The notes: a model not told the origin generated them from the sequence alone. DNA of 37,993 bases from Candidatus Buchananbacteria bacterium (GCA_903863425.1 CAIPBY010000067.1:1-37993); one strand, 5' to 3'. Shown: positions 3,500 through 37,387, counted from the stretch's first letter. Translations and numbers: made by a program.

Positions 3500-5065
3500 A
3501 TGCCAACTAAAAAACTCAAAACCTTCAAAAAAGTCATGCTTCTCATTCTCGACGGTTGGGGACTAGGCAAGGATGACGCGAGCAATCCCATTTACTTGGC
3601 GAAGACGCCATTTATCGATTCGCTTTATAAGAAATATCCCTGGACTAAACTTTGCGCTTCTGGAAAATGCGTGGGTTTGCCATCAAATCAGGTTGGTAAT
3701 TCCGAGGCCGGCCATATCAATCTTGGTGCCGGCAGAATTGTGGAGCAAGATGTGATTAAAATTTCTAAACAAATTGATACTGGAGAATTCGCCAAGAATT
3801 CGGCATTTCTCTCAGCTATTAAGCATGTGAAGAAAAATAAAAGCGCTCTTCATATCATGGGTTTACTTAGTAATGGCCAGAGTCCGCATAGCGATCCGGA
3901 TCATCTCTTGGCTCTACTTACAATGCTTCGTGAACACAAAGAAATTAAAAAAGTATATTTGCATTTATTTACTGACGGTCGTGATTCTCCGCCGAGGTCG
4001 GCGCTTAAGTCAGTCGAGGCTTTGGAGAGATTTCTCAAACCGCACGAGACAATTTGCACGGTAATTGGGCGGTTCTATGCTATGGACCGGAAAAAGGCTT
4101 GGGATCGGACCATGTTGTCGTACTATGCCATGATTGATGGTCGTAAAGCGCACAAAGCCAAGAGTCCACAGGAAGGAATTACTAGAGCTTATAATGGCAA
4201 CGTAACCGATGAATTCATCGAGCCCGTTGCTATATATCAGAAAGGCAAGATGACTCGAAGGATCTCTGACGACGATGCTATTTTATTTTTGAATCTTCGG
4301 TCTGATCGCGCCAGGCAAATGGCTAAGCCTTTTGTGCAGGATAATTTTGAGAAAAATAATTCAGGAGCGCCGAAGCGTAGAAAAGTTTTGCATAATTTAT
4401 GTTTTGTGGCCATGACCGATTTTGGCCCTGATCTTGATGGTATCTTGACTGCTTACCCATCGGAAGATGTGAAAAAAACTTTACCTATGCTTCTCGAAGG
4501 CAAAAAACAAATTTATATCGCCGAGAGCGAGAAGTATGCTCATGTCACCTTTTTCTTCAATGGCGGTTATGCTGATTTAGTCGATGGTGAAGTGAGGGTA
4601 AATATCCCATCTCCCAATGTTAGATCTTATGCGGAAACTCCAGTCATGTCCACAGGTAAAATCGTAAGTAAGATTATTTCTAGTTTGAAATCATATGATT
4701 TTATTTGCGCCAATATTGCCTGTCCGGATATGATAGGACATACTGGCGATATGAAGGCAGGAATCAAGACAGCTCACGCAGTTGACAGTTATGTTCAAAA
4801 AGTGGTCAGGTCAGCGCTAAAATTAGATTATGTCTTGATAATTACAGCAGATCATGGTAATCTTGAGTATAAGCTCAATCTAGAAACAGGGGAAATAATG
4901 ACCGAGCATACAACCAATCCAGTTCCCTGTATTTTTGTCGGTCATGGATTAAGTAAAGATTTAAAATTAGCCAAAAATTGTGTGCTAGGAAATGTAGCAC
5001 CAACAATTTTAAAACTTTTTGGTGTCAAAGGAAACAAGTTAATGAATAAGGAAAGTTTGATATAA
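3500..5065 (+). CDS. gpmI: 2,3-bisphosphoglycerate-independent phosphoglycerate mutase (paralog 1)
   Basis: LILDGWGLG, GNSEAGH (catalytic Ser), DGRDSPP, GRFYAMDR, NIACPDMIGHTG, ITADHGN, EHTTNPVP. Confidence 0.95.
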   Translation: MPTKKLKTFKKVMLLILDGWGLGKDDASNPIYLAKTPFIDSLYKKYPWTKLCASGKCVGLPSNQVGNSEAGHINLGAGRIVEQDVIKISKQIDTGEFAKNSAFLSAIKHVKKNKSALHIMGLLSNGQSPHSDPDHLLALLTMLREHKEIKKVYLHLFTDGRDSPPRSALKSVEALERFLKPHETICTVIGRFYAMDRKKAWDRTMLSYYAMIDGRKAHKAKSPQEGITRAYNGNVTDEFIEPVAIYQKGKMTRRISDDDAILFLNLRSDRARQMAKPFVQDNFEKNNSGAPKRRKVLHNLCFVAMTDFGPDLDGILTAYPSEDVKKTLPMLLEGKKQIYIAESEKYAHVTFFFNGGYADLVDGEVRVNIPSPNVRSYAETPVMSTGKIVSKIISSLKSYDFICANIACPDMIGHTGDMKAGIKTAHAVDSYVQKVVRSALKLDYVLIITADHGNLEYKLNLETGEIMTEHTTNPVPCIFVGHGLSKDLKLAKNCVLGNVAPTILKLFGVKGNKLMNKESLI

Positions 5066-5081
5066 ATCTCTAAATTATTTT

Positions 5082-6680
5082 ATGTCCGATTCAAATAATT
5101 CTTCCACTCGTCCCAAGCCGGTCATTCTTATGATTCTTGACGGTTGGGGAATTGCCCCACCATCAAGGAGCAATGCCATTACTCTTGCTAAGACCTATAC
5201 CATTAGCAATTTAATTAAGACTTATCCCGCCATGACGCTTCAGGCTTCCGGAGAAGCAGTTGGTTTGTCTTGGGGTGAAATTGGCAATTCTGAAGTGGGA
5301 CATCTAAATCTTGGTTCGGGAAAGCTGGTTTATCAAAACTTGCCCAAAATTGATAAGTCTATTACTGATGGAGCGTTTTTTAAGAATGAAAAATTTTTGG
5401 CGGCCATTGATCACGCGCGCAGCAACAAATCGGCCATTCATCTTATGGGACTGGTTTCTTCTGGCAGTGTGCACAGTTCAATCGAGCATCTCTACGGCTT
5501 ATTGGAATTGTGTGCTAAGGAGAAATTCAAAAAAGTATTCATCCATGCCTTTCTTGATGGACGAGATATGCCTTTTAATTCAGGCATTGATTTTATTACC
5601 AAGATACAGCAGAAAGTGAATGAGTATAAGACTGGAAAAATTGCCACTGTTTCCGGCCGGTTTTATGCCATGGACAGGGATAATCATTATGAAAGAGTAG
5701 CGTTGGCTTATAATGCCATGGTTAATGGCGAGTCAGTAGAAAAGTTTGAAGACCCGATTGAAGCAGTAAAAGCTTCTTACGATAAAAAGGTTTATGATGA
5801 AGAATTCATCCCGGTGGTAATTACTGATGGCGGTCAGCCGATTGCCAAAATTTCTGATGGGGATAGCATAGTTTTTTTCAATTATCGTAGTGATCGAGCC
5901 AGGGAAATCACTAAGGCTTTTGTCCTTCCTGGATTTGATAAATTCGAAAGAAAATATTTGGAAAATATATATTTTGTAGCCATGACAGAGTATGAGAAGG
6001 AGCTTCCTATTGAAGTCGCCTTTCCCCAGGAAGATATTAAGGAGCCAATCGCTAAGACGATTTCTGAAGCTGGGCTTAGTCAGTTGCATATTGCTGAAAC
6101 CGAGAAGTATGCGCATGTCACTTTTTTCTTTAATGGCGGTAGGGAGGATAAATTTACGGGAGAGGATAGGATTTTGGTGCCATCGCCTCGAATTTCTTCA
6201 TATGCGGAAAAGCCGGAAATGTCTGCCAAGGAAGTTACCAAAAAAACGATCGAAGCCATGATGATAGATAAGTATGATTTCATTGTGCTTAATTTTGCTA
6301 ATGGTGATATGGTGGCTCATACAGGTAATTTGAAGGCAACCATAAAGGCTTGTCAGGTTTTGGATGATTGCGTCAAACAAATAGTGGAAATGGTTTTGGC
6401 CAAAGGAGGCGTAGTTTTGATTACGGCAGATCATGGAAATGCTGAGGAGTTAGTTAATTTGCAGTCTGGCAAAATAGATAAAGAGCACAGCACTTATCCG
6501 GTTCCCTTGATTATAGTTGGCAGGGAATGGGAAGGCAAAAATGCCGGATTAAGCGAGGTACCGAATTCTGATTTGAGTTTGGTTCAGCCGTCAGGATTGC
6601 TATCAGATGTGGCACCGACCATACTTAGGATTATGAATTTACCTCAACCGGCGGAAATGACAGGTAAAAGTTTGATTTAG
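5082..6680 (+). CDS. gpmI: 2,3-bisphosphoglycerate-independent phosphoglycerate mutase (paralog 2)
   Basis: MILDGWGIA, GNSEVGH, DGRDMPF, GRFYAMDRD, NFANGDMVAHTG, ITADHGNAEE, EHSTYPVP. Confidence 0.95.
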   Translation: MSDSNNSSTRPKPVILMILDGWGIAPPSRSNAITLAKTYTISNLIKTYPAMTLQASGEAVGLSWGEIGNSEVGHLNLGSGKLVYQNLPKIDKSITDGAFFKNEKFLAAIDHARSNKSAIHLMGLVSSGSVHSSIEHLYGLLELCAKEKFKKVFIHAFLDGRDMPFNSGIDFITKIQQKVNEYKTGKIATVSGRFYAMDRDNHYERVALAYNAMVNGESVEKFEDPIEAVKASYDKKVYDEEFIPVVITDGGQPIAKISDGDSIVFFNYRSDRAREITKAFVLPGFDKFERKYLENIYFVAMTEYEKELPIEVAFPQEDIKEPIAKTISEAGLSQLHIAETEKYAHVTFFFNGGREDKFTGEDRILVPSPRISSYAEKPEMSAKEVTKKTIEAMMIDKYDFIVLNFANGDMVAHTGNLKATIKACQVLDDCVKQIVEMVLAKGGVVLITADHGNAEELVNLQSGKIDKEHSTYPVPLIIVGREWEGKNAGLSEVPNSDLSLVQPSGLLSDVAPTILRIMNLPQPAEMTGKSLI

Positions 6681-6685
6681 ATAAT

Positions 6686-8212
6686 ATGAAAGAAGCTACA
6701 GAAAAAAAGTTATTAGAAATTTTTCCGGCCCTAACTGTTTGGGTCACTTTTGTTATTGTGATAATTATTTCTTTTATAAGGCCGTTGTGGGCTATTTATT
6801 TTGTTATTGTTTTCTCGGTTTATTGGATTGTGCGATTATTTTATATGATGTATTGGCTTATCCAGTCTTGGATAATTTATAGGCGGGATAATAGAGTTGA
6901 CTGGATGGAAAGGGTTAAAGGATTAGATAAAAACTATCTCGATTATTATCATGTCGTAACCTATCCTACGCATTTGGAACCATTTGAAGTAGTAGAAAGA
7001 TCACTCTTAAAATTATTGGAAGTTGATTATCCTAAGGATCGTATTATTGTGGCTTTGGGCGGTGAGGAAAGAGACGGTGAATTTTTCCAAGATGTGGCCA
7101 GGAGGATTAAGGAAAAATTTGAAGGCAAGTTTTTTAGGTTGTTTATTACAACTCATACCTTGATGCCGGATGAGTTGGGCGGTAAAGGTGCCAACGTACA
7201 TTGCATGGAACTTAATCTAAAGAAAGAGATAGATGCTATGGCTATCCCTTATGAAAAAATAATCGTCTCTTGTTTTGATATTGAAACATTGCCCCATGTG
7301 CATTATTTCTCTTGTTTGACTTATAAATATTTGACTCATAGGAATCCTACTCATGCCAGTTATCAGCCGTTGGTTCTTTACAACAACAATATTTGGGAAT
7401 CAAACCCGGTTATAAGAGTTGTAGCTTGCGCTACCACATTTTGGCTTTTGACTGATCTGTCTAGGCCGGAGAAACTACTCACTTTTTCCTCTCATAGTAT
7501 GAGTTGGAAGATGCTAGTTGATGTCGGTTTCCATGACAAAACTATTGTGACGGAGGATTCCAGGATTTGCTTGCAGGCCATGGTAAGGTACGATGGCGAT
7601 TACGAAGTGGTTCCCATGTTTACTACCGTATCCATGGATACTGTTTATGTAGGTAAGTTTTGGAAAAGTGCCATGAATCAATATAAACAGATGCGACGTT
7701 GGGCTTGGGGCGTAGAACATTTTCCTTGGATGTGGGATAATTTTTTTGGCAAACATAAAAATACTAAAATTACATTGCGCAAGAGGTCGGCTTATTTATG
7801 GAATCAACTCGAGGGCATGTATTCTTGGGCGACAGCGCCATTACTAATTCTCATAGTTGGGCGTTTGCCTTTGTGGCTGGCCTCGCCGACTGATAAAGCC
7901 TCGGCTTTTTTCCAAAATGCTCCTAAGTCATTGGAAAATTTAATGACTCTAGGCATGATTGGCCTCATCCTTAATGCCATAATGTATACATTGATGCTTC
8001 CTAAGAAGCCGAGAGAATATAGTTTCGTAAATTATTTGATTATGGTTGCCCAATGGGTGATCTTTCCCGTTACTATGATAATTTTTGGATCCATACCAGC
8101 CGTAGATGCCCAAACTCGATTATTACTGGGAGGCAAATGGAAATTGGGATTTTGGATAACTCCAAAAATAGTTTCTAAATCAACAGTTTTAAATTCGCAA
8201 GCGGAAACATAA
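6686..8212 (+). CDS. Membrane glycosyltransferase, GT2 / cellulose-synthase-like
   Basis: N-terminal TM helices, processive-GT-like QMRRWAWGVEH (QxxRW) motif, C-terminal TM helices. Confidence 0.8.
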   Translation: MKEATEKKLLEIFPALTVWVTFVIVIIISFIRPLWAIYFVIVFSVYWIVRLFYMMYWLIQSWIIYRRDNRVDWMERVKGLDKNYLDYYHVVTYPTHLEPFEVVERSLLKLLEVDYPKDRIIVALGGEERDGEFFQDVARRIKEKFEGKFFRLFITTHTLMPDELGGKGANVHCMELNLKKEIDAMAIPYEKIIVSCFDIETLPHVHYFSCLTYKYLTHRNPTHASYQPLVLYNNNIWESNPVIRVVACATTFWLLTDLSRPEKLLTFSSHSMSWKMLVDVGFHDKTIVTEDSRICLQAMVRYDGDYEVVPMFTTVSMDTVYVGKFWKSAMNQYKQMRRWAWGVEHFPWMWDNFFGKHKNTKITLRKRSAYLWNQLEGMYSWATAPLLILIVGRLPLWLASPTDKASAFFQNAPKSLENLMTLGMIGLILNAIMYTLMLPKKPREYSFVNYLIMVAQWVIFPVTMIIFGSIPAVDAQTRLLLGGKWKLGFWITPKIVSKSTVLNSQAET

Positions 8213-8220
8213 AATTAATA

Positions 8221-9258
8221 ATGAATAATAAAAAAGTCACAATTCAGATAGTCACTTGGAATAGCTTAAGGTATCTGCCGGAATGTCTTAATTCTATTTT
8301 TGTTCAAACCTTTCGAGATTTTCATGTGTTAATTATTGATAATAATTCTTGCGATGGGACAGTGCAATTTTTGAGGACTAATTATCCTGATATTTCTATT
8401 ATTCAAAACAATAAAAATTTGGGATTTCCCAAGGGCAATAATCAAGGCATTAGATTGGTTAATTCCCCTTATCTGGTTTTGTGCAATCCTGATATTATTT
8501 TGGAACCGACTTGGCTAGAGAAGGTGGTTGAGTTGGCTGACTTGCCGGAGAATTATAAATATGGTTCTTTTGGCGGAAAGCTTTTGAAGCTCAAAGTTAT
8601 CGGTGGAGATTTAAACGAAGTAGAGAAGACTGAAATTATAGATTCTTGCGGATTGAAATTACTTCGAAATCATCAAGTGGTGGAATTGGGTGGAGGTGAG
8701 GATACTAGAGCGGTTCTGACCAAACAAGATGTTTTTGGACATTCAGGAGCGTTGGTTATGTATCGCAAAGAAGCCTTGCATGATTGTATTATGAAATATA
8801 ATGGAGCGCCAGACGGAGAATGCTTTGATGAGGATTTTTTTCTTTATAAGGAAGATGTTGATCTTGCTTGGCGCATGCAATTGATGGGTTGGAAGTCATT
8901 AATGGATCCCAGTATCATTGCCTATCATGTGAGATCAACAAGCGGATCGGAAAATCAGAAAATGAAAGAAATACTGAGCAATAGGAAGACGCAATCTAAG
9001 CAGGCTAAGTTTTATTCGTATCGCAATCATTTTTTGATTTTAATTAAGAATGAATCTTTTCCTAATTTGTTGAAGTATTTTTTGCCTATTTTCTGGTATG
9101 AATTGAAAAAATTCTGCTATATTCTTTTTTTTGAAGCAGAAAGTCTGGGCTCGATAAGGCAGGTATTTTCACTTTGGTCCAAAATGCAGAAAAAGAGAAA
9201 ATTTATTTTTTCTACCATGAAAGTGGATGTTAATTATCTCAGAAGGTGGATAAATTAA
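8221..9258 (+). CDS. GT2 family glycosyltransferase
   Basis: IQIVTWNSLRYLPECLNSI, VLIIDNNSCDGT, NLGFPKGNNQGI, LVLCNPDI, FFLYKEDVDLAWRM. Confidence 0.92.
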   Translation: MNNKKVTIQIVTWNSLRYLPECLNSIFVQTFRDFHVLIIDNNSCDGTVQFLRTNYPDISIIQNNKNLGFPKGNNQGIRLVNSPYLVLCNPDIILEPTWLEKVVELADLPENYKYGSFGGKLLKLKVIGGDLNEVEKTEIIDSCGLKLLRNHQVVELGGGEDTRAVLTKQDVFGHSGALVMYRKEALHDCIMKYNGAPDGECFDEDFFLYKEDVDLAWRMQLMGWKSLMDPSIIAYHVRSTSGSENQKMKEILSNRKTQSKQAKFYSYRNHFLILIKNESFPNLLKYFLPIFWYELKKFCYILFFEAESLGSIRQVFSLWSKMQKKRKFIFSTMKVDVNYLRRWIN

Positions 9259-9261
9259 AAT

Positions 9262-10047
9262 ATGGAAATATCGATTATTATAAATAATTACAAGACGAGG
9301 GGACTACTTAAGCAATGCTTGAAGGGAATTTTTGCCTTTCCTCCGTCAGTGCCGTTTGAGGTGATTGTTGTGGATAATAATTCTGGTGACGGTTCAGTTG
9401 AATTGGTGAGAGAGAAATTTTCTCAAGTAAAATTAATTGATGCCAAAGAAAATTTGGGTCATCAGAAAGGTAATAATTTAGGCATAAGCAATTCAGCTGG
9501 CAAATATGTTTTGATTCTAAATACGGATATTGCCATACTGGATAATGTTTTTGATAAGATGTATAGGTATATGGAAGCCAATTCTAATGTGGCGCTTGTC
9601 GGGCCCAAACTCAAGAATCCTGATGGATCAGTGCAAATGTCTTGCATGCGATATCCTACAACTTTTATGCCAATATATAGGAGGACATTTTTGGGACGGA
9701 TTCCTTGGGCAAGAACCGCGATTAGCAGTTATTTGATGGAAGATTTTAATCATAATGAAATTAGGGAAGTGGATTGGATTTTGGGCTCTTGCGAGCTTGT
9801 TCGTCGGAGTGCGATCGATAAAGTTGGTGGAATGGATGAGGATTTTTTCATGTATTTCGGCGATGTGGCTTGGTGCCAGAAGTTTCATACGGCCGGATTT
9901 AAAATAATATATTTTCCCGAAGGAGACATTATTCATTATCACAAAAGAGAATCCGCTCAAGGCGGAATATTATCCAAGATTTTTTGGATTCACATCAGTG
10001 ATTGGATTAAATATTTAAAAAAATATCCACAAAAAAATGCTGTTTAA
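9262..10047 (+). CDS. GT2 family glycosyltransferase
   Basis: ISIIINNYKTRGLLKQCL, VIVVDNNSGDGS, NLGHQKGNNLGI, VLILNTDI, FFMYFGDVAWCQKFH. Confidence 0.92.
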   Translation: MEISIIINNYKTRGLLKQCLKGIFAFPPSVPFEVIVVDNNSGDGSVELVREKFSQVKLIDAKENLGHQKGNNLGISNSAGKYVLILNTDIAILDNVFDKMYRYMEANSNVALVGPKLKNPDGSVQMSCMRYPTTFMPIYRRTFLGRIPWARTAISSYLMEDFNHNEIREVDWILGSCELVRRSAIDKVGGMDEDFFMYFGDVAWCQKFHTAGFKIIYFPEGDIIHYHKRESAQGGILSKIFWIHISDWIKYLKKYPQKNAV

Positions 10048-12039: not shown

Positions 12040-13047
12040 ATGTTAATAAGAAAAATAGGTATTGATCTGGGAACAACTAATGTCCTGGTGCATTTGCCTA
12101 AAAGAGGCATAGTTATAAATGAGCCATCAGTAGTGGCTATTTCTAATTTTGATAAGAAAATCATCGCCGTCGGAGCGGAAGCCAAAGAAATGTTGGGCCG
12201 AACTCCTGATACCATTATTGCGCAAAAGCCACTTAAGGATGGTGTGATTGCTGATTATAAAACAACTGAGGCGATGTTAAGGTATTTTATCAATAAGGCT
12301 CTGGGTGGTGTCAGGCTTTTTCGTCCCGAGGTCATGGTGGCAGTGCCCGCGGGCATTACTTCGACAGAGCGAAGAGCCGTGGTGGATGCTACTATCGCGG
12401 CCGGAGCTAAAGCCGCTTATATTATTAAAGAGCCTATTGTGGCAGCCATAGGAGCCAATATCCCCATTGGTTCGGCTTCAGGCCATATGATCATTGATAT
12501 CGGCGGAGGCACATCAGAGATTGCAGTTATTTCCCTTGGCGGAATTGTCAGTTCTACCTCAGTACGAATTGGAGGTAATAAATTTGATTTGGCTATCACT
12601 GAATATATTAGGAAAAAATATAATTTAGCTATTGGAGAAAGGACAGCCGAAGAAATCAAGATTAACATCGGTTCGGCTATGTATCTTAATGACCGTCTGT
12701 ATATGGATGTCAGGGGCAGGGATATGATTGCCGGACTTCCGCGTATTGTTACTATTTCTTCGGATGACATTACTGATGCCATTCAGGCTGAGTTGGAAGG
12801 AATTGTCTCGGCCACTAAGACCGTGCTTCATAATACTCCGCCGGAGTTATCCGCGGATGTAATTGATAAGGGGATTGTGATGTCTGGCGGATCAAGCTTG
12901 CTACGTAACATTGATAAGTTAATTACTCAGACTACGGGCATCTCGGCTTATGTGGCCGAAGATGCGCTGTATTGCGTAGCCAAGGGGACTGGCATTGCTT
13001 TGGAGAATTTAGAGAGTTATAAGCGCTCAATATTGGCTACCAAATAA
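12040..13047 (+). CDS. mreB: Rod shape-determining protein MreB (paralog 1, canonical nucleotide-binding motifs)
   Basis: [64 protein letters not shown]. Confidence 0.93.
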   Translation: MLIRKIGIDLGTTNVLVHLPKRGIVINEPSVVAISNFDKKIIAVGAEAKEMLGRTPDTIIAQKPLKDGVIADYKTTEAMLRYFINKALGGVRLFRPEVMVAVPAGITSTERRAVVDATIAAGAKAAYIIKEPIVAAIGANIPIGSASGHMIIDIGGGTSEIAVISLGGIVSSTSVRIGGNKFDLAITEYIRKKYNLAIGERTAEEIKINIGSAMYLNDRLYMDVRGRDMIAGLPRIVTISSDDITDAIQAELEGIVSATKTVLHNTPPELSADVIDKGIVMSGGSSLLRNIDKLITQTTGISAYVAEDALYCVAKGTGIALENLESYKRSILATK

Positions 13048-20076: not shown

Positions 20077-21117
20077 ATGTTTAAAAAATTTTTTGGAAAA
20101 TTTAATAAAGGTTTGGGCATTGACTTAGGTAGTGCCCATACTTTGATTTATCAGCAAGATCGCGGGATAATCATCAGCGAATCCTCAGTTGTTTCCGTCA
20201 ACACTAGGACTGATCAGATTTTGGCTGTGGGAGACGAGGCTAGGAAAATGCTGGGCAAGACTCCGCCTCACATTATTGCCACCAAACCGTTGGAATATGG
20301 TATTATTTCTGATTTTGAAATTACCGAGAAAATGCTTAAGTATTTTTTCAATAAAGTCCGGGCTTCGGAGAAGTCATTTTTTTCATCTTCGCCTCGGTCG
20401 GTTGTCGGAGTGCCACTCGATGTCACGGCCGTAGAGAAGAAGGCAGTGGAAGATGTAATCATGTCTGCAGGATCTTCCAAGGTATATCTGGTAGAAAATA
20501 TCATGGCTTCGGCTGTGGGTGCGAGAATTCCAATTCAAGATCCGTCCGGAAATATGATTGTGAATTTGGGTGGCGGTTTAACTGAGGTGGCTGTCGTCTC
20601 TCTTAGTGGTATTGTAAATTGGAAAGTTTCTAGAATTGCCGGATCAACTTTGGATAGGGATATTATAAATTTTGCCAGAGAAGAATATGGCTTAGTGCTT
20701 GGTGAAATGGTAGCAGAGGATATTAAGAAGAAAATCGGTTCAGCTACTGAGCTTTTAGAGGCTGTGGAAATGCCTATGCGAGGACGAGACGTTTTGACCG
20801 GACTTCCTCGGGAAGTGATGATCAATGATTTTCAGATTAGAAAGGCCATAAACAAATCTGTCCAAAAAATGCTTGATACTATCAAATCGACGTTAGAGAC
20901 AACGCCACCAGAGTTGGTGGCAGATATTTATCAAAAAGGAATTGTGCTCACCGGTGGTACGGCTCAACTCAAGGGTTTGGATCGGTTCATTGCCGAAGGG
21001 ATTCAGATCCCGGTTCATATCGCCGATGACCCGCAGACTTGCTCAGTCCGTGGCATGGGCATGTTCCTGGATAACGAGCCATTACTCCTCGATATTGCTG
21101 TGCCATCATCCCAATAG
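20077..21117 (+). CDS. mreB: MreB paralog 2 (mreCD-linked, divergent active site)
   Basis: GIDLGSAHTLIY, VENIMASAVGARIPIQ, MIVNLGGGLTEVAVVSLSGIV, IVLTGGTAQLKGLDRFI. Confidence 0.9.
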   Translation: MFKKFFGKFNKGLGIDLGSAHTLIYQQDRGIIISESSVVSVNTRTDQILAVGDEARKMLGKTPPHIIATKPLEYGIISDFEITEKMLKYFFNKVRASEKSFFSSSPRSVVGVPLDVTAVEKKAVEDVIMSAGSSKVYLVENIMASAVGARIPIQDPSGNMIVNLGGGLTEVAVVSLSGIVNWKVSRIAGSTLDRDIINFAREEYGLVLGEMVAEDIKKKIGSATELLEAVEMPMRGRDVLTGLPREVMINDFQIRKAINKSVQKMLDTIKSTLETTPPELVADIYQKGIVLTGGTAQLKGLDRFIAEGIQIPVHIADDPQTCSVRGMGMFLDNEPLLLDIAVPSSQ

Positions 21118-28995: not shown

Positions 28996-29022
28996 TTAGC
29001 ACTCAAACAGTGAGAGTGCTAA
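28996..29022. promoter_or_regulatory. CIRCE element (HrcA operator)
   Basis: Perfect TTAGCACTC-N9-GAGTGCTAA upstream of hrcA. Confidence 0.97.
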
Positions 29023-29051: not shown

Positions 29052-29747
29052 ATGGACGACAGGCAAAAAAAATTGCTTAAGGTAATTGTCGAAGAATATA
29101 TTAGTTCGGCCACTCCTGTCGGCTCCGGAATTATTGCCGAGAAATATTTCAGTGATTTGAGTTCAGCTACTATTAGAAATGACATGGCTGAATTAGAAGA
29201 AATCGGCTATATTTCTCAACCGCATACCTCTGCCGGAAGAATTCCGACTTTGGCCGGTTATGGGTTTTATTTAGAAAATTTTGTCGCCTCTGGAGAGATT
29301 AATTCCAAGCACAGAAAAGTAATTGAAGAAACGCTTCGTTCTATCGGTAAAGATGAAGAGGGAATAAAAACTTTAGCCAAGACTTTGGCCGAATTGTCCG
29401 GTGGTGTTATTCTGGTAGGATTTTCGCCTATAAATGTGTATTATACGGGAATTTCTAACTTATTCAGACAGCCGGAATTTCAGCATAATAACTTAATGTT
29501 TTCCATGTCGGAGATTATAGATCATTTGGACGAAGTCATGGCTATGGTTTTTAATTCAGTTAATGAGCAGGTTATGGTGCTAATCGGAGAGGATAGTCCG
29601 TTCGGAGAGTTTTCTTCAGTGGTTATAGTCAAGTACGAGTTTTCAGGACAGGTTGGCCTTATCGGAATACTAGGACCGAATAGGATGAATTATCGGCAGA
29701 ATATGGGACTAATTCAATTAAGTCAAGAATTATTAAAAAATATTTAA
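29052..29747 (+). CDS. hrcA: Heat-inducible transcription repressor HrcA (short form, 231 aa)
   Basis: DDRQKKLLKVIVEEYISSATPVGSGIIAEK, SSATIRNDMAELEEIGYISQPHTSAGRIPT, GLIGILGPNRMNYRQNMGLI. Confidence 0.93.
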   Translation: MDDRQKKLLKVIVEEYISSATPVGSGIIAEKYFSDLSSATIRNDMAELEEIGYISQPHTSAGRIPTLAGYGFYLENFVASGEINSKHRKVIEETLRSIGKDEEGIKTLAKTLAELSGGVILVGFSPINVYYTGISNLFRQPEFQHNNLMFSMSEIIDHLDEVMAMVFNSVNEQVMVLIGEDSPFGEFSSVVIVKYEFSGQVGLIGILGPNRMNYRQNMGLIQLSQELLKNI

Positions 29748-30359: not shown

Positions 30360-30542
30360 TCAGCGTAATACTTTCCGTTGTTTGATGAGGAGTTGAACCT
30401 CTAAGATGGTTCCCTCGGGTTCGGTTTTTGTCGCAATTGCGCCGACACTCATCAATCCCTGCATTTCGCATGGAGTTCCCTTCGTGAAAATGATCGTCAC
30501 AGTTTTGTCTCGATCGTGTTGCGGAACGGGTTCGAAGTTCAT
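30360..30542 (-). CDS. 60-aa hypothetical protein translationally coupled to ACP
   Basis: ATGA overlap with the ACP stop; AGGAGG (30550-30555) 7 nt upstream of the ATG; followed by intrinsic terminator. Confidence 0.7.
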   Translation of the reverse strand: MNFEPVPQHDRDKTVTIIFTKGTPCEMQGLMSVGAIATKTEPEGTILEVQLLIKQRKVLR

Positions 30543-30826
30543 ACGTGTTCCTCCTGTTGCGTTTCAGCCTGTTCGGCGCTTTTGCAGATGAAGTCGGTGA
30601 TGCCACTAAGGGTGAGTTCATCGTAATCGAAGTAATCGAGTAAGCCGAAGTTGGCAGTGGGGAATTCCCTTTCCAACTTCACTATGATTTCCGCCTGATC
30701 CAGTGAATCGATACCCAAGTCATTGGTTAATCGTGCTTCGGGGGTTAGCGTTGTGTTGCTGTCCCCAGTGGTTTCCCTGACAGTTAAATACACTATATCC
30801 AATACAGTATCATGATTTAACAACAT
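30539..30826 (-). CDS. Acyl carrier protein
   Basis: LTNDLGIDSLDQAEIIVKLEREF (DSL phosphopantetheine site); AAGGAG (30836-30841) 9 nt upstream of the ATG. Confidence 0.9.
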   Translation of the reverse strand: MLLNHDTVLDIVYLTVRETTGDSNTTLTPEARLTNDLGIDSLDQAEIIVKLEREFPTANFGLLDYFDYDELTLSGITDFICKSAEQAETQQEEHV

Positions 30827-30945: not shown

Positions 30946-32874
30946 ATGAGTAAAATTCTAGGAATCGATTTGGGCACTACCAATAGTGCCATGGCCATTA
31001 TGGAAGGAGGCCAACCCAAAATTGTGGAAAACAAAGAAGGAGCCAGAACCACGCCTTCAATTATCGCAGTCAGCAAAACTGGCGAGCGCATGGTTGGTGT
31101 TTCTGCCAAAAGACAAGCGGTTACTAATCCAACCAATACGCTTTTCTCCATCAAGAGATTGATTGGTAGAAAATGGGAAGATCCGGAAGTGCAAAGGGAT
31201 TTATCTTTAATGCCTTTCAAAATTCAAAAGTCTGGTGGCGGAGTGAAAATCGTTATGGGCGACAAAGAATATAGCCCTCAAGAAATTTCTGCCATGATCC
31301 TGACAAAGTTAAAGGAAGACGCAGAAGCCAAGCTGGGTGAGAAAATAACTGAAGCTATTATCACAGTTCCTGCTTATTTTGATGATGCACAAAGACAAGC
31401 CACCAAAGATGCCGGAGAAATCGCTGGGCTTACTGTGAAAAGAATTATTAATGAGCCTACGGCCGCTGCCCTAGCTTATGGTTTTGATAAGAAAAAAGGC
31501 GAACAGATTGCGGTCTATGATTTGGGTGGAGGAACTTTTGATATTTCTATTCTTGATGTCTCCGAGGACACGGTCGAAGTGAAATCCACCAATGGCGATA
31601 CTCACTTGGGCGGTGATGATTTCGATCAAAAGATTATGGATTGGATTATGGGAGAATTCAAGAAGCAAGAGGGAATTGATTTGTCCAAGGATCAGACTGC
31701 GCTTCAAAGAGTGAAGGAATCAGCCGAGAAAGCCAAAATCGAGCTTTCTACTCAAATGGAAACCGAAATCAACCAGCCTTTTATCACCATGGGAAGCGAC
31801 AGCTCACCCAAGCATCTTAATTTAAAGATGACTAGATCACAACTCGAGAGTTTGGTTATGGATTTAGTGGATAAGACTTTTGAGCCAGTCAAAAAAGCGC
31901 TTAGCGATGCCGGCATGACTACTTCGCAAATTCAGGAAGTGGTTATGGTTGGTGGTATGACTCGTATGCCATTGGTGCTTAAGAAAGTTGAAGAATTTTT
32001 TGGTAAGAAACCAAACATAACAGTTAATCCTGACGAAGTGGTAGCTCTTGGCGCGGCCGTACAAGCTGGTGTGCTTCAGGGCGATATTAAGGACGTGTTG
32101 CTTCTCGATGTTACTCCTTTGACTCTTGGTATCGAGACTTATGGCCAGGTGATGACACCACTAATTGATAGAAATACTACTATTCCTACTTCCAAGTCAC
32201 AAGTATTCTCGACTGCTGCGGATAATCAGCCAGCCGTAGAAATCCATGTGCTCCAGGGAGAAAGACCAATGGCGACTGACAACAAGACCCTGGGTAAATT
32301 TGTGCTCGACGGTATCCCGCCAGCACCTCGAGGCGTACCTCAAGTCGAGGTGACTTTTGATATTGATGCCAATGGAATTCTAAATGTCAAAGCCAAAGAC
32401 AAAGCTACCAGCAAAGAACAGCATATCACCATTACTTCATCTTCCGGATTATCCAAAGAGGAAATTGAACGTATGAAGAAAGAAGCCGAGTTGCATGCTG
32501 AAGAAGATAAGAAGCGAAAAGAATTAATTGATCTCAAAAATCAAGCGGAAAATTTAATTTTCACAGTTGAAAAGACTTTGAAGGATGCGGGCGATAAGGT
32601 TGATGCCACCACCAGAAAAGATATTATGGACAAGACTGAGGATTTGAAGAAGTCCAAGGATGGCACCGATAAGGAAATACTGCAGAAGAATTATGACGCC
32701 TTAAGTGAAGCCATTGGTAAGGTTGGTGCTGCTATGTACCAACAGCCTGGTGCTGACGCTGGTCAGGCTGGTCCTCAGGCTGGAGCTGGTGAACAAGCTC
32801 AAGCTAGTCAAACTGAGCAAGGACCAAAGACTGATGAGCCGGTTGAAGGACAATTTGAAGAAGTGAAAAAGTGA
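30946..32874 (+). CDS. dnaK: Molecular chaperone DnaK (Hsp70)
   Basis: [82 protein letters not shown]. Confidence 0.98.
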
Positions 32875-32883
32875 AAATTAATT

Positions 32884-33840
32884 ATGAAAATTGGCATCCC
32901 TAGAGCGGGCTTGTATTATCTTTACTTTCCATTTTGGAAGAAGTTTTTTGATGAATTGGGAGTTGAGGTGGTGGTATCGCCAAAAACGGATAAGCAAATA
33001 ATGGATATTGGACTTTCGACCGCTAACGGTGAAGCGTGTTTGCCCATTAAAATATTCTATGGCCATGTCAATTGGTTAAGGGCTAATGGAGCAAATATCT
33101 TTTTGTTTCCTCAGATGGATATAATGACCAACTCCCTTAAAAAGTTAGGAGAAAAATCATTTTTTTGTCCATATTTTGTGGGCATGTCTGATGTGATGAG
33201 GGCCGAATATCCGGAAATAGAAATAATCAGCCCCAAGATGGCTATGGATGATAAAACTATTGATCCTGAGTCATGGTTGGAATTAGCAGATAAATTCGGG
33301 AAAAATAAAGCAGAAGTAAAATCAGCTTTCGAGAAAGCTCAAGCCGAACATGTTTCTTTTATTGCCAGAATGCAGGCCGAACAATTGATGCCGGTAGAAA
33401 TTATCGACGGCATAAAGATAAATAGTTCCAGCAAAGACAAGATTGCCATAATTGGTCATCCATACTTAACTTATGATTTTCACGCTAGTTTGAATATTAT
33501 TGGTAAGATGATTAAAAATGGCTATTTTGTCAGGACTATGGAGATGATTACTGAAAGTGAGAAGGCTGAGGCCGTGGAATCGCTTTTCCTGCAACCACAC
33601 AATCATTGGTTTTTGACCAATGAAGAGCGAATGGCCTTGATGGCAGTTGCCAAAGACAAAGACGTCAAAGGTATAATTTATTTGACGCCATTTAATTGCG
33701 GGCCGGATTTTCTGATGGAAACTTTTGTGCTCAAGGATGTGAGAAAGTTGAAGCCCATTACCACCATCTCAATTGACGAGGCTAGTGGTGAAGCCGGACT
33801 CGCCACCAGGATAGAAGCCTTTATTGACGTTTTGAAATAA
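32884..33840 (+). CDS. 2-hydroxyacyl-CoA dehydratase-like / DUF2229-type protein (COG3580-like)
   Basis: MKIGIPRAGLYYLYFPFWKKFFDELGVEVVVSPKTDKQIM...GEACLPIKIFYGHV; three spaced Cys: ACLP, FFCPY, FNCGPD. Confidence 0.8.
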   Translation: MKIGIPRAGLYYLYFPFWKKFFDELGVEVVVSPKTDKQIMDIGLSTANGEACLPIKIFYGHVNWLRANGANIFLFPQMDIMTNSLKKLGEKSFFCPYFVGMSDVMRAEYPEIEIISPKMAMDDKTIDPESWLELADKFGKNKAEVKSAFEKAQAEHVSFIARMQAEQLMPVEIIDGIKINSSSKDKIAIIGHPYLTYDFHASLNIIGKMIKNGYFVRTMEMITESEKAEAVESLFLQPHNHWFLTNEERMALMAVAKDKDVKGIIYLTPFNCGPDFLMETFVLKDVRKLKPITTISIDEASGEAGLATRIEAFIDVLK

Positions 33841-33842
33841 TT

Positions 33843-34928
33843 ATGAAATACGCATCATACCACGGACTAAATCAACACATTGCCATGAGAGTGATGTTTA
33901 ATTATTTTGGTAAGAAATTTATAGAACTTCCACAGCTAAACGATAAGATGTTGAGGTGGGGCGAGGCCAATGCTCCTGAATATTCCTGTTTTCCTTTGAA
34001 GGCGTATATGGGATTTTTCAAGGCCTTGATAGATATGGATGTCCATGATTTCTTCGTTTATGGAGCAACAACCATAAGATCTTGCCGGTATATGGATTTA
34101 TGGGAAGGCGGAAAGAAAATACTGGCCGATAAGGGTTATGATTTTAATATCCACTATTGGGGTGGATTCGGCACCATGAATATTTTTAAGCAATTTCAGG
34201 GTATAATGGGCAAGTGCTCTAAAGCCAAAATTGCCGTAGGTATCTTGGTTTATGCTGATGCGCTTTATGCGGTTGATAAATTAAACGATGAAGCCAACAA
34301 ATTAAGGCCAAGAGAAGTCAAGGCCGGTTCTGTCGATGCTTGGCTTAAGAAGTGGTATGAAAAAATGAAGAAACAGAAGAAGCTTGGCAAGCCTGTCAAG
34401 ATCATGAATGTCGGTCTTAAGGATTTAAAGAACATCGAAATAGATAATGATAGGGAAATAATAAAAGTGGCCTTTGTCGGGGATGTGTTTAAGGTGCATG
34501 AACCGTTTTTCCATTTTGATACGATTAAAAAAATAAATAAGCTCGGTTTGGAGGCTAGACAGCCGATAACTTTCTCTTTATTTTTCTTTGGACAGAATCC
34601 TATTTTTTTCCGATCCGATATGGTGAAGAAATTTAAGAATTATCAGAAAAAAGCCAAGAAATATATGTCTTCTTCGCCGACCTCGTACTTGGATATTAGT
34701 ATAGGGGAAGTAATAGAAGATCTTGAAAATGGCGCCAAAGGCATAATTCATTTTCAGAGCTTCGGTTGTATGCCGGATATCATGTTTAAGCCGATTTTGG
34801 ATCGGATTGCCAAAGATTATAATGTGCCTATCATGCATTTCATGCGAGATACGCATGCTTCTGACGGCGCTTACCAGACACGGTTGGAGGCATTCTCAGA
34901 TTTAGTTAAGCGGAAAAGCAAAAAATAA
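33843..34928 (+). CDS. 2-hydroxyacyl-CoA dehydratase-like second subunit (COG3581-like)
   Basis: APEYSCFPLKAYMGFFKALIDMDVHDFFVYG...TTIRSCRYMD...FQSFGCMPDIMFKPIL; three-Cys pattern paralleling the upstream protein. Confidence 0.75.
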   Translation: MKYASYHGLNQHIAMRVMFNYFGKKFIELPQLNDKMLRWGEANAPEYSCFPLKAYMGFFKALIDMDVHDFFVYGATTIRSCRYMDLWEGGKKILADKGYDFNIHYWGGFGTMNIFKQFQGIMGKCSKAKIAVGILVYADALYAVDKLNDEANKLRPREVKAGSVDAWLKKWYEKMKKQKKLGKPVKIMNVGLKDLKNIEIDNDREIIKVAFVGDVFKVHEPFFHFDTIKKINKLGLEARQPITFSLFFFGQNPIFFRSDMVKKFKNYQKKAKKYMSSSPTSYLDISIGEVIEDLENGAKGIIHFQSFGCMPDIMFKPILDRIAKDYNVPIMHFMRDTHASDGAYQTRLEAFSDLVKRKSKK

Positions 34929-34939
34929 AGATAAATACC

Positions 34940-35968
34940 ATGGAGCAAAGTAATAATATTAATAACAATCAAATGGATCCAAATTTAAATTCTCACGAGA
35001 AAAAGAGGGCTTATCTTGGAATCGATGTGGGTTCAGTCAGCTGTAATGTTGTAGCTATTGATTCCAATGGGAAATTGTTTTTCAAAAGATATATCAGAAC
35101 TCAAGGTCAGCCGATTCAGGCGATCAAATTCGGATTGTTTGAAGCCAGCGAAGAGTTGAAAAAATATGAGATAGCCGGAGTGGGCACGACTGGAAGCGGT
35201 AGGATTTTGGCTGGATTTTTGGTGGGCGCAGATATAGTTAAAAATGAAATAACTGCTCATGCTACGGCGGCTGGAAGTGAAGTGCCGGAAGTCAGGACGG
35301 TTATAGAAATCGGCGGACAAGATTCTAAGATTATTATTCTCGAAGATGGCATTGTGACTGATTTTGCCATGAATACGGTTTGCGCGGCTGGCACCGGATC
35401 GTTTCTTGATCAGCAATGCTCAAGATTGGGAATAAAAATAGAAGACTTCGGAGATTTGGCTTTGCAGTCCGAGAGCGGTGTGAGTATCTCCGGCAGATGT
35501 ACGGTTTTTGCCGAGTCGGATATGATTCATAAACAGCAGATAGGCGCCAAGAGAGAAGATATTATCCGTGGTTTGTGTGAAGCATTGGTCAGAAATTATT
35601 TAAATAATATAGGAAAAGGCAAGGATATTGAAGAGCCGATTGTTTTCCAAGGCGGTGTAGCTGCCAATAAAGGCATCAAGGCGGAATTTGAGAAGGCTTT
35701 GGGCAAGAAGGTGACTATTCCGGAACACTTCGATGTGATGGGGGCTTTGGGTGCAGCGCTTCTAGCCAAGGAGGCAAAATTAGAAAAAAGTAAATTCAAA
35801 GGATTTGATATTTCTAAGCATCAATTTGAGACCACGGCTTTTCATTGCCCGGATTGTACTAATAATTGTGAAGTGGTGGAATTCAAGGAAAATGGAAAGG
35901 TTACGGCCCGTTGGGGGGATAGATGTGGGAAGTGGGCGGAAAATTTAGACAAAAGACCAAAAGTTTAA
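34940..35968 (+). CDS. BadF/BadG/HgdC-type ATP-dependent Fe-S activase (COG1924-like) with C-terminal four-Cys motif
   Basis: YLGIDVGSVSCNVVAID, VIEIGGQDSKIIIL, NTVCAAGTGSFLDQQ, SGRCTVFAESDMIHKQQ, FQGGVAANKGI; C-terminal CPDCTNNC...GDRCGKW. Confidence 0.92.
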   Translation: MEQSNNINNNQMDPNLNSHEKKRAYLGIDVGSVSCNVVAIDSNGKLFFKRYIRTQGQPIQAIKFGLFEASEELKKYEIAGVGTTGSGRILAGFLVGADIVKNEITAHATAAGSEVPEVRTVIEIGGQDSKIIILEDGIVTDFAMNTVCAAGTGSFLDQQCSRLGIKIEDFGDLALQSESGVSISGRCTVFAESDMIHKQQIGAKREDIIRGLCEALVRNYLNNIGKGKDIEEPIVFQGGVAANKGIKAEFEKALGKKVTIPEHFDVMGALGAALLAKEAKLEKSKFKGFDISKHQFETTAFHCPDCTNNCEVVEFKENGKVTARWGDRCGKWAENLDKRPKV

Positions 35969-35987
35969 TAAATTAATTTAGAAATAT

Positions 35988-36272
35988 ATGGAAAACCAGA
36001 ATCAAATGGAAATTAAAATCGCTGATAATTTGCCTGGCGGAGAATATGCTAATGCCATGCAGGTAGTGCATAACAAGGAAGAATTTATTCTTTCATTTTT
36101 TAATATTGTGGCTCCGGCTGGCAGAGTTTGCTCAAAGATTATTACCAGCCCGGGACATATCAAAAGAATGATTGCAGCTTTGGATGAAAATTTGAAAAAA
36201 TACGAAGTTCAATTTGGTTCTATTACTCAGGCAGAAAGTCCGAAGGCAGAAATAGGTTTTAAGGCAGAATAA
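35988..36272 (+). CDS. DUF3467-family protein
   Basis: GGEYANAMQVVHNKEEFILSFFNIVAPAGRVCSKIITSPGHIKRMIAALDENLKKYEVQFG. Confidence 0.8.
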   Translation: MENQNQMEIKIADNLPGGEYANAMQVVHNKEEFILSFFNIVAPAGRVCSKIITSPGHIKRMIAALDENLKKYEVQFGSITQAESPKAEIGFKAE

Positions 36273-36280
36273 TATTAATT

Positions 36281-37387
36281 ATGGCAACAGACTATTACAA
36301 AATTTTAGGAGTTGATAAGGGTGCTTCACAGGAGGATGTTAAGAAGGCTTTTAGGAAGCTAGCCCATGAACATCATCCGGACAAGGCCGGAGGCAATGAG
36401 AATAAGTTCAAAGAGATAAACGAAGCTTATCAGGTTCTTGGCAATGAAGATAAAAGGAAGCAGTATGATCAGTTCGGTTCTTCCTTTCAGAATAATGCTG
36501 GAGGCGGAGCAGGTGGTTTCAATTACTCTGATTTTGCTAGAGCGCAAGGAGGTAATCCTTTTGGCCAAGGCCAAGGGGGAGCTAGCTTCGATTTCGGCGA
36601 TATGGGAGATTTGGGTGATCTGTTCGGGTCGTTTTTTGGTGGAGGAAGTCAGAGAAAAACTAGACGTCAAACTCGTGGTGCAGACATGGAAGTAGAAATA
36701 ACTTTGGAATTTGAAGAGGCCGTGTTTGGTGTGGAGAAAAACATAAGGTTAAAGAAAAATATAAATTGTGATATTTGTAATGGAAGCGGTGCTGAGCCAG
36801 GATCAAAAGTAGAAAACTGTGCAACTTGCCATGGAAGCGGTTATGTCAGTCAAATTCAACAGACTTTCTTGGGCAATATCAGGAGCCAGGCAGTTTGCCC
36901 TAAATGCCAGGGAGAAGGCAAGATATATGACAAGAAGTGCCACAAATGTCATGGCGAGGGCACGGTTGTTAGTGATGAGGAAATTAGAGTGAAGATTCCA
37001 GCTGGGATTGATAATGGACAATCACTTCGACTCTCTGGAAAAGGCGAGGCCAAAGGCAAGGGAACGCCAGGTGATTTGTATGTCAGGATAAGAGTAAAAT
37101 CGAACACAAATTTTGTTCGCAAGGGATATGATATATATTCGAAAGAATTCGTCTCTGTTTCGCAGGCAATCTTAGGCGGGAAAATTGAAGTTGCTACTGT
37201 CGATGGTTTGGTAAATTTGAAAGTGCCGGAAGGCACTCAAAGCCATACGGAGTTTCGGCTTAAGGACAAAGGAATCCCGCATTTGGAAGGACGTGGCAGG
37301 GGAGATCATCTGGTCGAGATAATCGTGCGTATTCCCAAGAGCCTGACTAAACAACAAAGAAAATTAATTGAAGAAGCTGGCATATAA
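36281..37387 (+). CDS. dnaJ: Chaperone protein DnaJ (Hsp40)
   Basis: J-domain with HPD (HEHHPDKAGG), G/F region, four CxxCxGxG repeats (CDICNGSG, CATCHGSG, CPKCQGEG, CHKCHGEG). Confidence 0.97.
   Translation: MATDYYKILGVDKGASQEDVKKAFRKLAHEHHPDKAGGNENKFKEINEAYQVLGNEDKRKQYDQFGSSFQNNAGGGAGGFNYSDFARAQGGNPFGQGQGGASFDFGDMGDLGDLFGSFFGGGSQRKTRRQTRGADMEVEITLEFEEAVFGVEKNIRLKKNINCDICNGSGAEPGSKVENCATCHGSGYVSQIQQTFLGNIRSQAVCPKCQGEGKIYDKKCHKCHGEGTVVSDEEIRVKIPAGIDNGQSLRLSGKGEAKGKGTPGDLYVRIRVKSNTNFVRKGYDIYSKEFVSVSQAILGGKIEVATVDGLVNLKVPEGTQSHTEFRLKDKGIPHLEGRGRGDHLVEIIVRIPKSLTKQQRKLIEEAGI

Follow-up and report, generated by a model that had tools for sequence, protein, structure and literature searches.

A stretch of 37,993 nucleotides from a Candidatus Buchananbacteria bacterium (GCA_903863425.1, CAIPBY010000067.1:1-37993; the whole stretch is referred to as the window) carries three consecutive genes between dnaK and dnaJ, and comparison of their products with known proteins indicates that they probably encode a complete ATP-driven iron-sulfur (Fe-S) reductase, in which an activase, P3, would supply low-potential electrons to a heterodimer of P1 and P2 acting on a carbonyl that is difficult to reduce. 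The genes for P1 (Red1; 318 amino acids (aa), 32884-33840), P2 (Red2; 361 aa, 33843-34928) and P3 (Act; 342 aa, 34940-35968) all lie on the forward strand and are followed on that strand by a gene for a 94 aa DUF3467 protein (35988-36272). An earlier note, made from this DNA alone, had described the four open reading frames (ORFs) as filling the dnaK-dnaJ interval on one strand with tiny gaps, and this was confirmed by ORF calling, Pfam and NCBIfam.

Domains, conserved cysteines and proposed electron path

P1 was identified by Pfam as a DUF2229 protein (PF09989; E 2e-47), scoring 162 bits against a gathering score of 29.4 with the whole model covered, and its HGD-D score of 24.4 bits was under the cut-off of 28.4. 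P2, which is HGD-D-like, fell below both gathering scores (HGD-D, 28.0 vs 28.4 bits; DUF2229, 23.2 vs 29.4 bits), so that the HGD-D cut-off was reached by neither protein; a P2 relative (L041) lay narrowly above the gathering score for DUF2229. P3 is an ASKHA ATPase matching both BcrAD_BadFG (PF01869; E 4e-48, 164.8 bits vs 31.5) and the NCBIfam model for acyl-coenzyme A (CoA) dehydratase activase (TIGR00241; E 5e-57, 193.4 bits vs a curated cut-off of 125.4), and its ATPase domain is homologous to the solved activases 1HUX and 4EHT and to the DCCP reductase 7YYL. Profile searches of the PDB matched DCCP with both P1 (E 2.5e-5 and 1e-4) and P2 (E 2e-4 and 7e-4), and gave weaker matches, around the third cysteine, to the beta subunit of 2-hydroxyisocaproyl-CoA dehydratase. 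Likewise, Foldseek matched the P1 model to DCCP with a probability of 1.00 and E 9e-8.

The cysteines of all three proteins are conserved. When free-standing and fused homologues were aligned, C95 and C272 of P1 were present in 21/21 sequences and C52 in 20/21, the exception being a truncated ORF, while C49, C81 and C309 of P2 were found in 13/13 free-standing proteins and in 21/22 sequences overall. In P3, C148 and C187, which correspond to the cluster-bridging positions of the solved activases, are cysteine in all 25 aligned activases. P3 also carries a C-terminal CxxCxxxC...C motif (Cys4; C303-C306-C310-C329), which is complete in each of the 11 aligned activases that are free-standing or fused to P2. 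Most second activation domains of the fused enzymes have all or most of it, some of the aligned segments there ending ahead of the fourth cysteine. Within the activase alignment the motif is absent from E. coli YjiL and only partial in two BCR-type activases. The three-cysteine sites of P1 and P2, the two bridging cysteines and the extra C-terminal motif of P3 had all been named in the earlier note and are near-universal among homologues, and its proposal of a two-subunit Fe-S enzyme with an HgdC-type activase is supported.

P2 represents a derived subtype. Five residues that are near-invariant elsewhere, and mostly kept in the fused enzymes too, are replaced in the Buchananbacterial proteins (G79R, Y86L, E214D, N224H and P306S), with R79 lying two residues before C81 and S306 three residues before C309. 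As the cluster ligands are kept while surrounding residues differ, Buchananbacterial P2 may have its own substrate or specificity. Comparison of P2 with an 86%-identical IMG/VR fragment gave nonsynonymous (pN) and synonymous (pS) values of 0.07 and 0.78, respectively, over 117 codons, which by this measure identifies P2 as a gene under strong purifying selection and not a chance ORF. In a scan of viral contigs the sole match was a P1-P2 fragment with 75% DNA identity to the window (L092, IMGVR_UViG_3300021077_000171, 5517-6354), located at one end of a contig that also carries phage-tail-like genes; this is probably a chimeric assembly and possibly the product of recombination.

In the enzyme we propose, P3 would be a homodimer whose chains each contribute C148 and C187 to a single bridging [4Fe-4S] cluster, and would use ATP to drive electrons to very low potential, with the Cys4 motif probably holding a further metal centre that is likely to be the electron inlet. 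P1 and P2 would associate as a heterodimer with one cluster held by the three cysteines of each subunit, one cluster relaying electrons and the other acting on the substrate, reducing a recalcitrant carbonyl or ester by ketyl-type chemistry. We infer these cluster types, the heterodimer and the electron route. Electrons would probably be supplied by NAD(P)H via a ferredoxin-reductase-like flavoprotein, or by ferredoxin. In one relative (G429; L034, 9616-11331) the activase is fused to an FNR-like FAD/NAD domain in a 571 aa protein, and because this domain stands directly behind the Cys4 motif, the fusion suggests that NAD(P)H electrons enter the activase through that motif. The window genome encodes a separate FNR-like protein that is 28% identical to the fused domain (E 5e-29), together with several ferredoxin-domain ORFs and a second FNR-like protein adjoining a cysteine-rich Fe-S subunit, and the donor to the window trio may be among such proteins. 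Judged by eye and not by a curated model, the second FNR-like protein and its Fe-S subunit resemble a portion of a group 3b hydrogenase.

Fused relatives and other free-standing sets

Trees were built for each of the three proteins, with fused references that had been picked by architecture and organism, the assayed PlsA and Ger sequences lying outside the trees. In every case the free-standing sets fell on one side of a branch, facing Act2 of the fused enzymes in the Act tree (SH-aLRT 94), their Red1 in the Red1 tree (96/96) and their Red2 in the Red2 tree (94/99). Furthermore, the activase tree grouped P3 on the PlsA-type side, apart from YjiL and the BCR-type activases. On these trees the trio is the free-standing sister lineage of the fused PlsA/Ger-like enzymes, which are its nearest relatives in the set tested, and a kinship to the large fused polypeptides of Clostridia, which the earlier note had drawn, is supported. 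By the same placement the trio is outside PlsA/Ger as these are defined, being neither fused nor within the PlsA/Ger-like clade. No second activase was found in the window genome and the trio has a single activation domain. Origin of the trio by splitting of a local fusion was rejected, as the trees group all free-standing sets with one another and away from the fusions of Patescibacteria.

Such genes are sparsely distributed. DUF2229 was detected in 8/381 genomes of a class-wide sample, with free-standing genes in two and open frames of 1,024-1,593 residues in six, and P2 relatives were detected in 10/380 genomes of a phylum sample. Most of these belonged to a trio, a pair or a partial fusion, and their loci were unrelated, one family having them between gyrB and gyrA. 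Trios occur at unrelated sites in several other Patescibacteria families. Partial fusions among relatives join Red1 to Red2 (G395) or Red2 to Act (G446). A 1021-aa fusion of two activation domains and Red1 was also observed (L013, G304; 6214-9279), with no Red2 within or beside it. Outside the Patescibacteria, Monoglobus pectinilyticus (Clostridia; NZ_OY725744.1) also has the three genes unfused and ordered as in the window, its activase sharing 56% identity with P3, and the contrast drawn in the earlier note between separate genes here and fused ones in Clostridia is therefore not supported. The Monoglobus trio is annotated, but we know of no function for it. Other DUF2229 matches in the plasmid collection belonged to fused enzymes or to a plsA-plsR-like pair, with activases 32-42% identical to P3. 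A scan of named genomes with a two-row alignment as query found only the Buchananbacteria relative, class searches around G429, G437 and G401 gave no further split trio, and a literature search on COG3580, COG3581 and DUF2229 returned nothing on the trio.

Position within the chaperone gene cluster

The trio is flanked on its 5' side by dnaK (30946-32874) and on its 3' side by the DUF3467 gene and dnaJ (36281-37387), all on the forward strand, with spacings of 9 bp (dnaK-P1), 2 bp (P1-P2), 11 bp (P2-P3), 19 bp (P3-DUF3467) and 8 bp (DUF3467-dnaJ). A single transcript across the cluster is plausible, because terminator-like sites within it are no more frequent than chance (7 found vs 6.9 expected); no structured RNA in the cluster was matched by Rfam. 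A perfect CIRCE element (28996-29022, forward strand; 0 mismatches, chance expectation 0.01) lies upstream of hrcA-grpE, and heat-shock control of the trio from CIRCE is possible, by read-through only. The HrcA encoded downstream of this element (29052-29747) is short, at 231 aa against a 338-position model, and scores 185 bits against a cut-off of 197.

Across 38 genomes, comprising the window genome and its relatives, an activase of the P3 type was found in two, the window genome and a second Candidatus Buchananbacteria metagenome-assembled genome (G005), whose gene order is also dnaK-P1-P2-P3-DUF3467-dnaJ. The trio occupies this position in 2/10 genomes of the Buchananbacteria family, in two genera. 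In each of the other family members whose cluster could be read, seven in all, the order is dnaK-DUF3467-dnaJ with no trio, and DUF3467 (PF11950; E 1e-16 for the window protein) also lies next to or near dnaJ in several relatives of other families. DUF3467 was therefore rejected as a partner of the Fe-S system, with which the earlier note had listed it, and is a chaperone-cluster gene. The simplest account is that the trio is a three-gene insert after dnaK, which we infer to have arrived by horizontal transfer; a single insertion event may be shared by the window and G005. The dnaK-DUF3467 interval behaves as if it tolerates insertions, and unrelated extra ORFs were observed there in three relatives (L069, G008; L070, G021; L076, G036). 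Recent foreign origin judged by composition was rejected, since guanine-cytosine (GC) content and its third-position value (GC3) in the trio resemble those of neighbouring genes, and a role in anti-phage defence was likewise rejected, as PADLOC gave no match.

The linkage bears on a further explanation, in which the trio acts with DnaK and DnaJ as a chaperone-coupled device for redox protection or Fe-S assembly. The tight same-strand packing with no above-chance terminator between genes, CIRCE upstream of hrcA and an arrangement conserved in two genera would all fit such a device, but seven family members have the chaperone genes and DUF3467 and lack the trio, unrelated ORFs take up the same interval in other relatives, and the trios examined beyond the family, those of Monoglobus and of other Patescibacteria, do not adjoin chaperone genes. 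We consider this explanation very improbable. Since the trio appears to be an insert in two of ten family genomes and elsewhere stands at unrelated loci, its link to dnaK and dnaJ looks incidental, with no function beyond possible shared transcription, and tight packing within a heat-shock cluster need not imply a functional link. The linkage that the earlier note expected in relatives thus stood in the two Buchananbacteria genomes and failed in the rest of the family and in trios outside it, and the chaperone-assisted or stress function it suggested is not borne out at those unrelated loci.

Other features of the window were also observed. An acyl carrier protein (ACP)-like ORF with a DSL motif (30539-30826, reverse strand) lies in the grpE-dnaK interval, antisense to the cluster genes, and similar short ORFs occur near dnaK in the trio-less relatives G001, G002 and G009; it was on this account rejected as an acyl-carrier partner of the trio. 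By eye, a tandem gene pair (3500-5065 and 5082-6680) resembles cofactor-independent phosphoglycerate mutase, and two paralogues (12040-13047 and 20077-21117) are MreB-like.

Candidate substrates and comparison with known systems

Several points weigh against the trio being a complete Fe-S reductase inserted after dnaK. The AlphaFold models in which convergence of the cysteines was looked for, made from a two-sequence alignment, are of low confidence (predicted local distance difference test scores of 67 and 53), and no significant structural match was found for the P2 model. In Buchananbacterial P2, otherwise invariant residues are replaced, two of them beside cluster cysteines, and no biochemical data were found on any free-standing set. 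In the chaperone-gene tree the window and G005 are sisters with a support of 41, and repeated loss in place of insertion may also account for the distribution, with transfer in either direction. Nevertheless, we consider the reductase reading likely.

By analogy, our leading guess for the substrate is an acyl ester in a lipid that the cell has acquired, because of the kinship with PlsA/Ger, which are the characterised enzymes with such a domain set; PlsA/PlsR produce a vinyl ether from an acyl ester, and alkyl ethers are the product of Ger (PMC9702350, PMC8788747, PMC13274423). Put in its substrate-specific form, the trio would be a dissected glycerol-ester reductase turning the acyl esters of acquired membrane lipids into vinyl or alkyl ethers, a possibility that we hold only tentatively. 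The sister relationship to the Act2, Red1 and Red2 of PlsA/Ger-like enzymes, with the Cys4 motif in common, argues for it. A search of the window genome for ketoacyl synthase was negative, with control genomes positive in 14/14 cases, and the genome has a PlsC-like acyltransferase; therefore the fatty acids of any lipid substrate would have to be acquired. Lipid-type neighbours are consistent with this form at two loci, where in G429 a VTT/DedA gene and a PLD-domain gene are close to the set and in G401 a diacylglycerol-kinase-like gene is close to a P1-P2 pair, but no lipid genes were found near the other loci examined. Moreover, the trio stands outside the fused clade and has no second activation domain, P2 is divergent, and no lipid data were found for these bacteria. 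More doubtful still is the broader proposal that Patescibacteria without a detectable fatty-acid condensing enzyme make ether-type lipids from acquired ester lipids with a free-standing trio, the active site of Buchananbacterial Red2 having been re-specified.

A CoA-thioester enzyme of the 2-hydroxyacyl-CoA dehydratase or benzoyl-CoA-reductase type would accord with the resemblance of P3 to HgdC-type activases and the similarity of P1 and P2 to HGD-D. However, P1 belongs to DUF2229 and is under the HGD-D cut-off, P3 groups away from YjiL and BCR-type activases, and no CoA-metabolism gene stands beside the trio in the window, making such an enzyme improbable; a substrate other than a CoA thioester, raised as a possibility in the earlier note, would fit the PlsA/Ger kinship. 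We give an equally low probability to a DCCP-like reductase of small molecules. Although, among solved structures, P1 is closest to DCCP in both profile and fold searches and P2 is closest to it in profile searches, P1 scores only 17.8 bits against the 350-bit cut-off of the NCBIfam double-cubane model (NF040772), to which P2 had no match. P1 and P2 are also two distinct subunits with three conserved cysteines each, compared with a single DCCP polypeptide, and P3 does not group with YjiL.

Read as an ATP-driven Fe-S reductase, the trio is kin to the PlsA/Ger machine but dissected into small separate subunits, which are easier to express and solve than fusions of 1,400 residues. It could reveal the workings of this branch of ATP-driven Fe-S enzymes and the role of the accessory Cys4 motif, and the activase-flavoprotein fusion of G429 may point to the electron donor used across the family. 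Were the substrate a lipid, the trio would show lipid remodelling by reduced, probably host-dependent bacteria.

Among known systems, HgdC with HgdAB and their relatives share with the trio the combination of an activase and a two-subunit enzyme with three-cysteine clusters; the Red subunits are remote kin of the 2-hydroxyacyl-CoA dehydratases, whose tested activases have an incomplete Cys4 motif or none at all. The DCCP and DCCP reductase pair (YjiM/YjiL) is likewise activase-driven and similar to P1 in fold, but its reductase is a single polypeptide, its NCBIfam model is not reached by P1 and its activase belongs to another clade. The trio of Monoglobus, labelled 'acyl-CoA dehydratase activase-related protein / 2-hydroxyacyl-CoA dehydratase / acyl-CoA dehydratase activase', agrees in its three genes, their order and their cysteines, and differs in lying away from chaperone genes, the derived P2 subtype belonging to the window. 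PlsA/PlsR and Ger, as represented by the PlsA/Ger-like fusions, are homologous piece by piece in the second activation domain with its Cys4 linker, Red1 and Red2, but are fused (or form a PlsA and PlsR pair), have an extra first activation domain and make up a separate clade.

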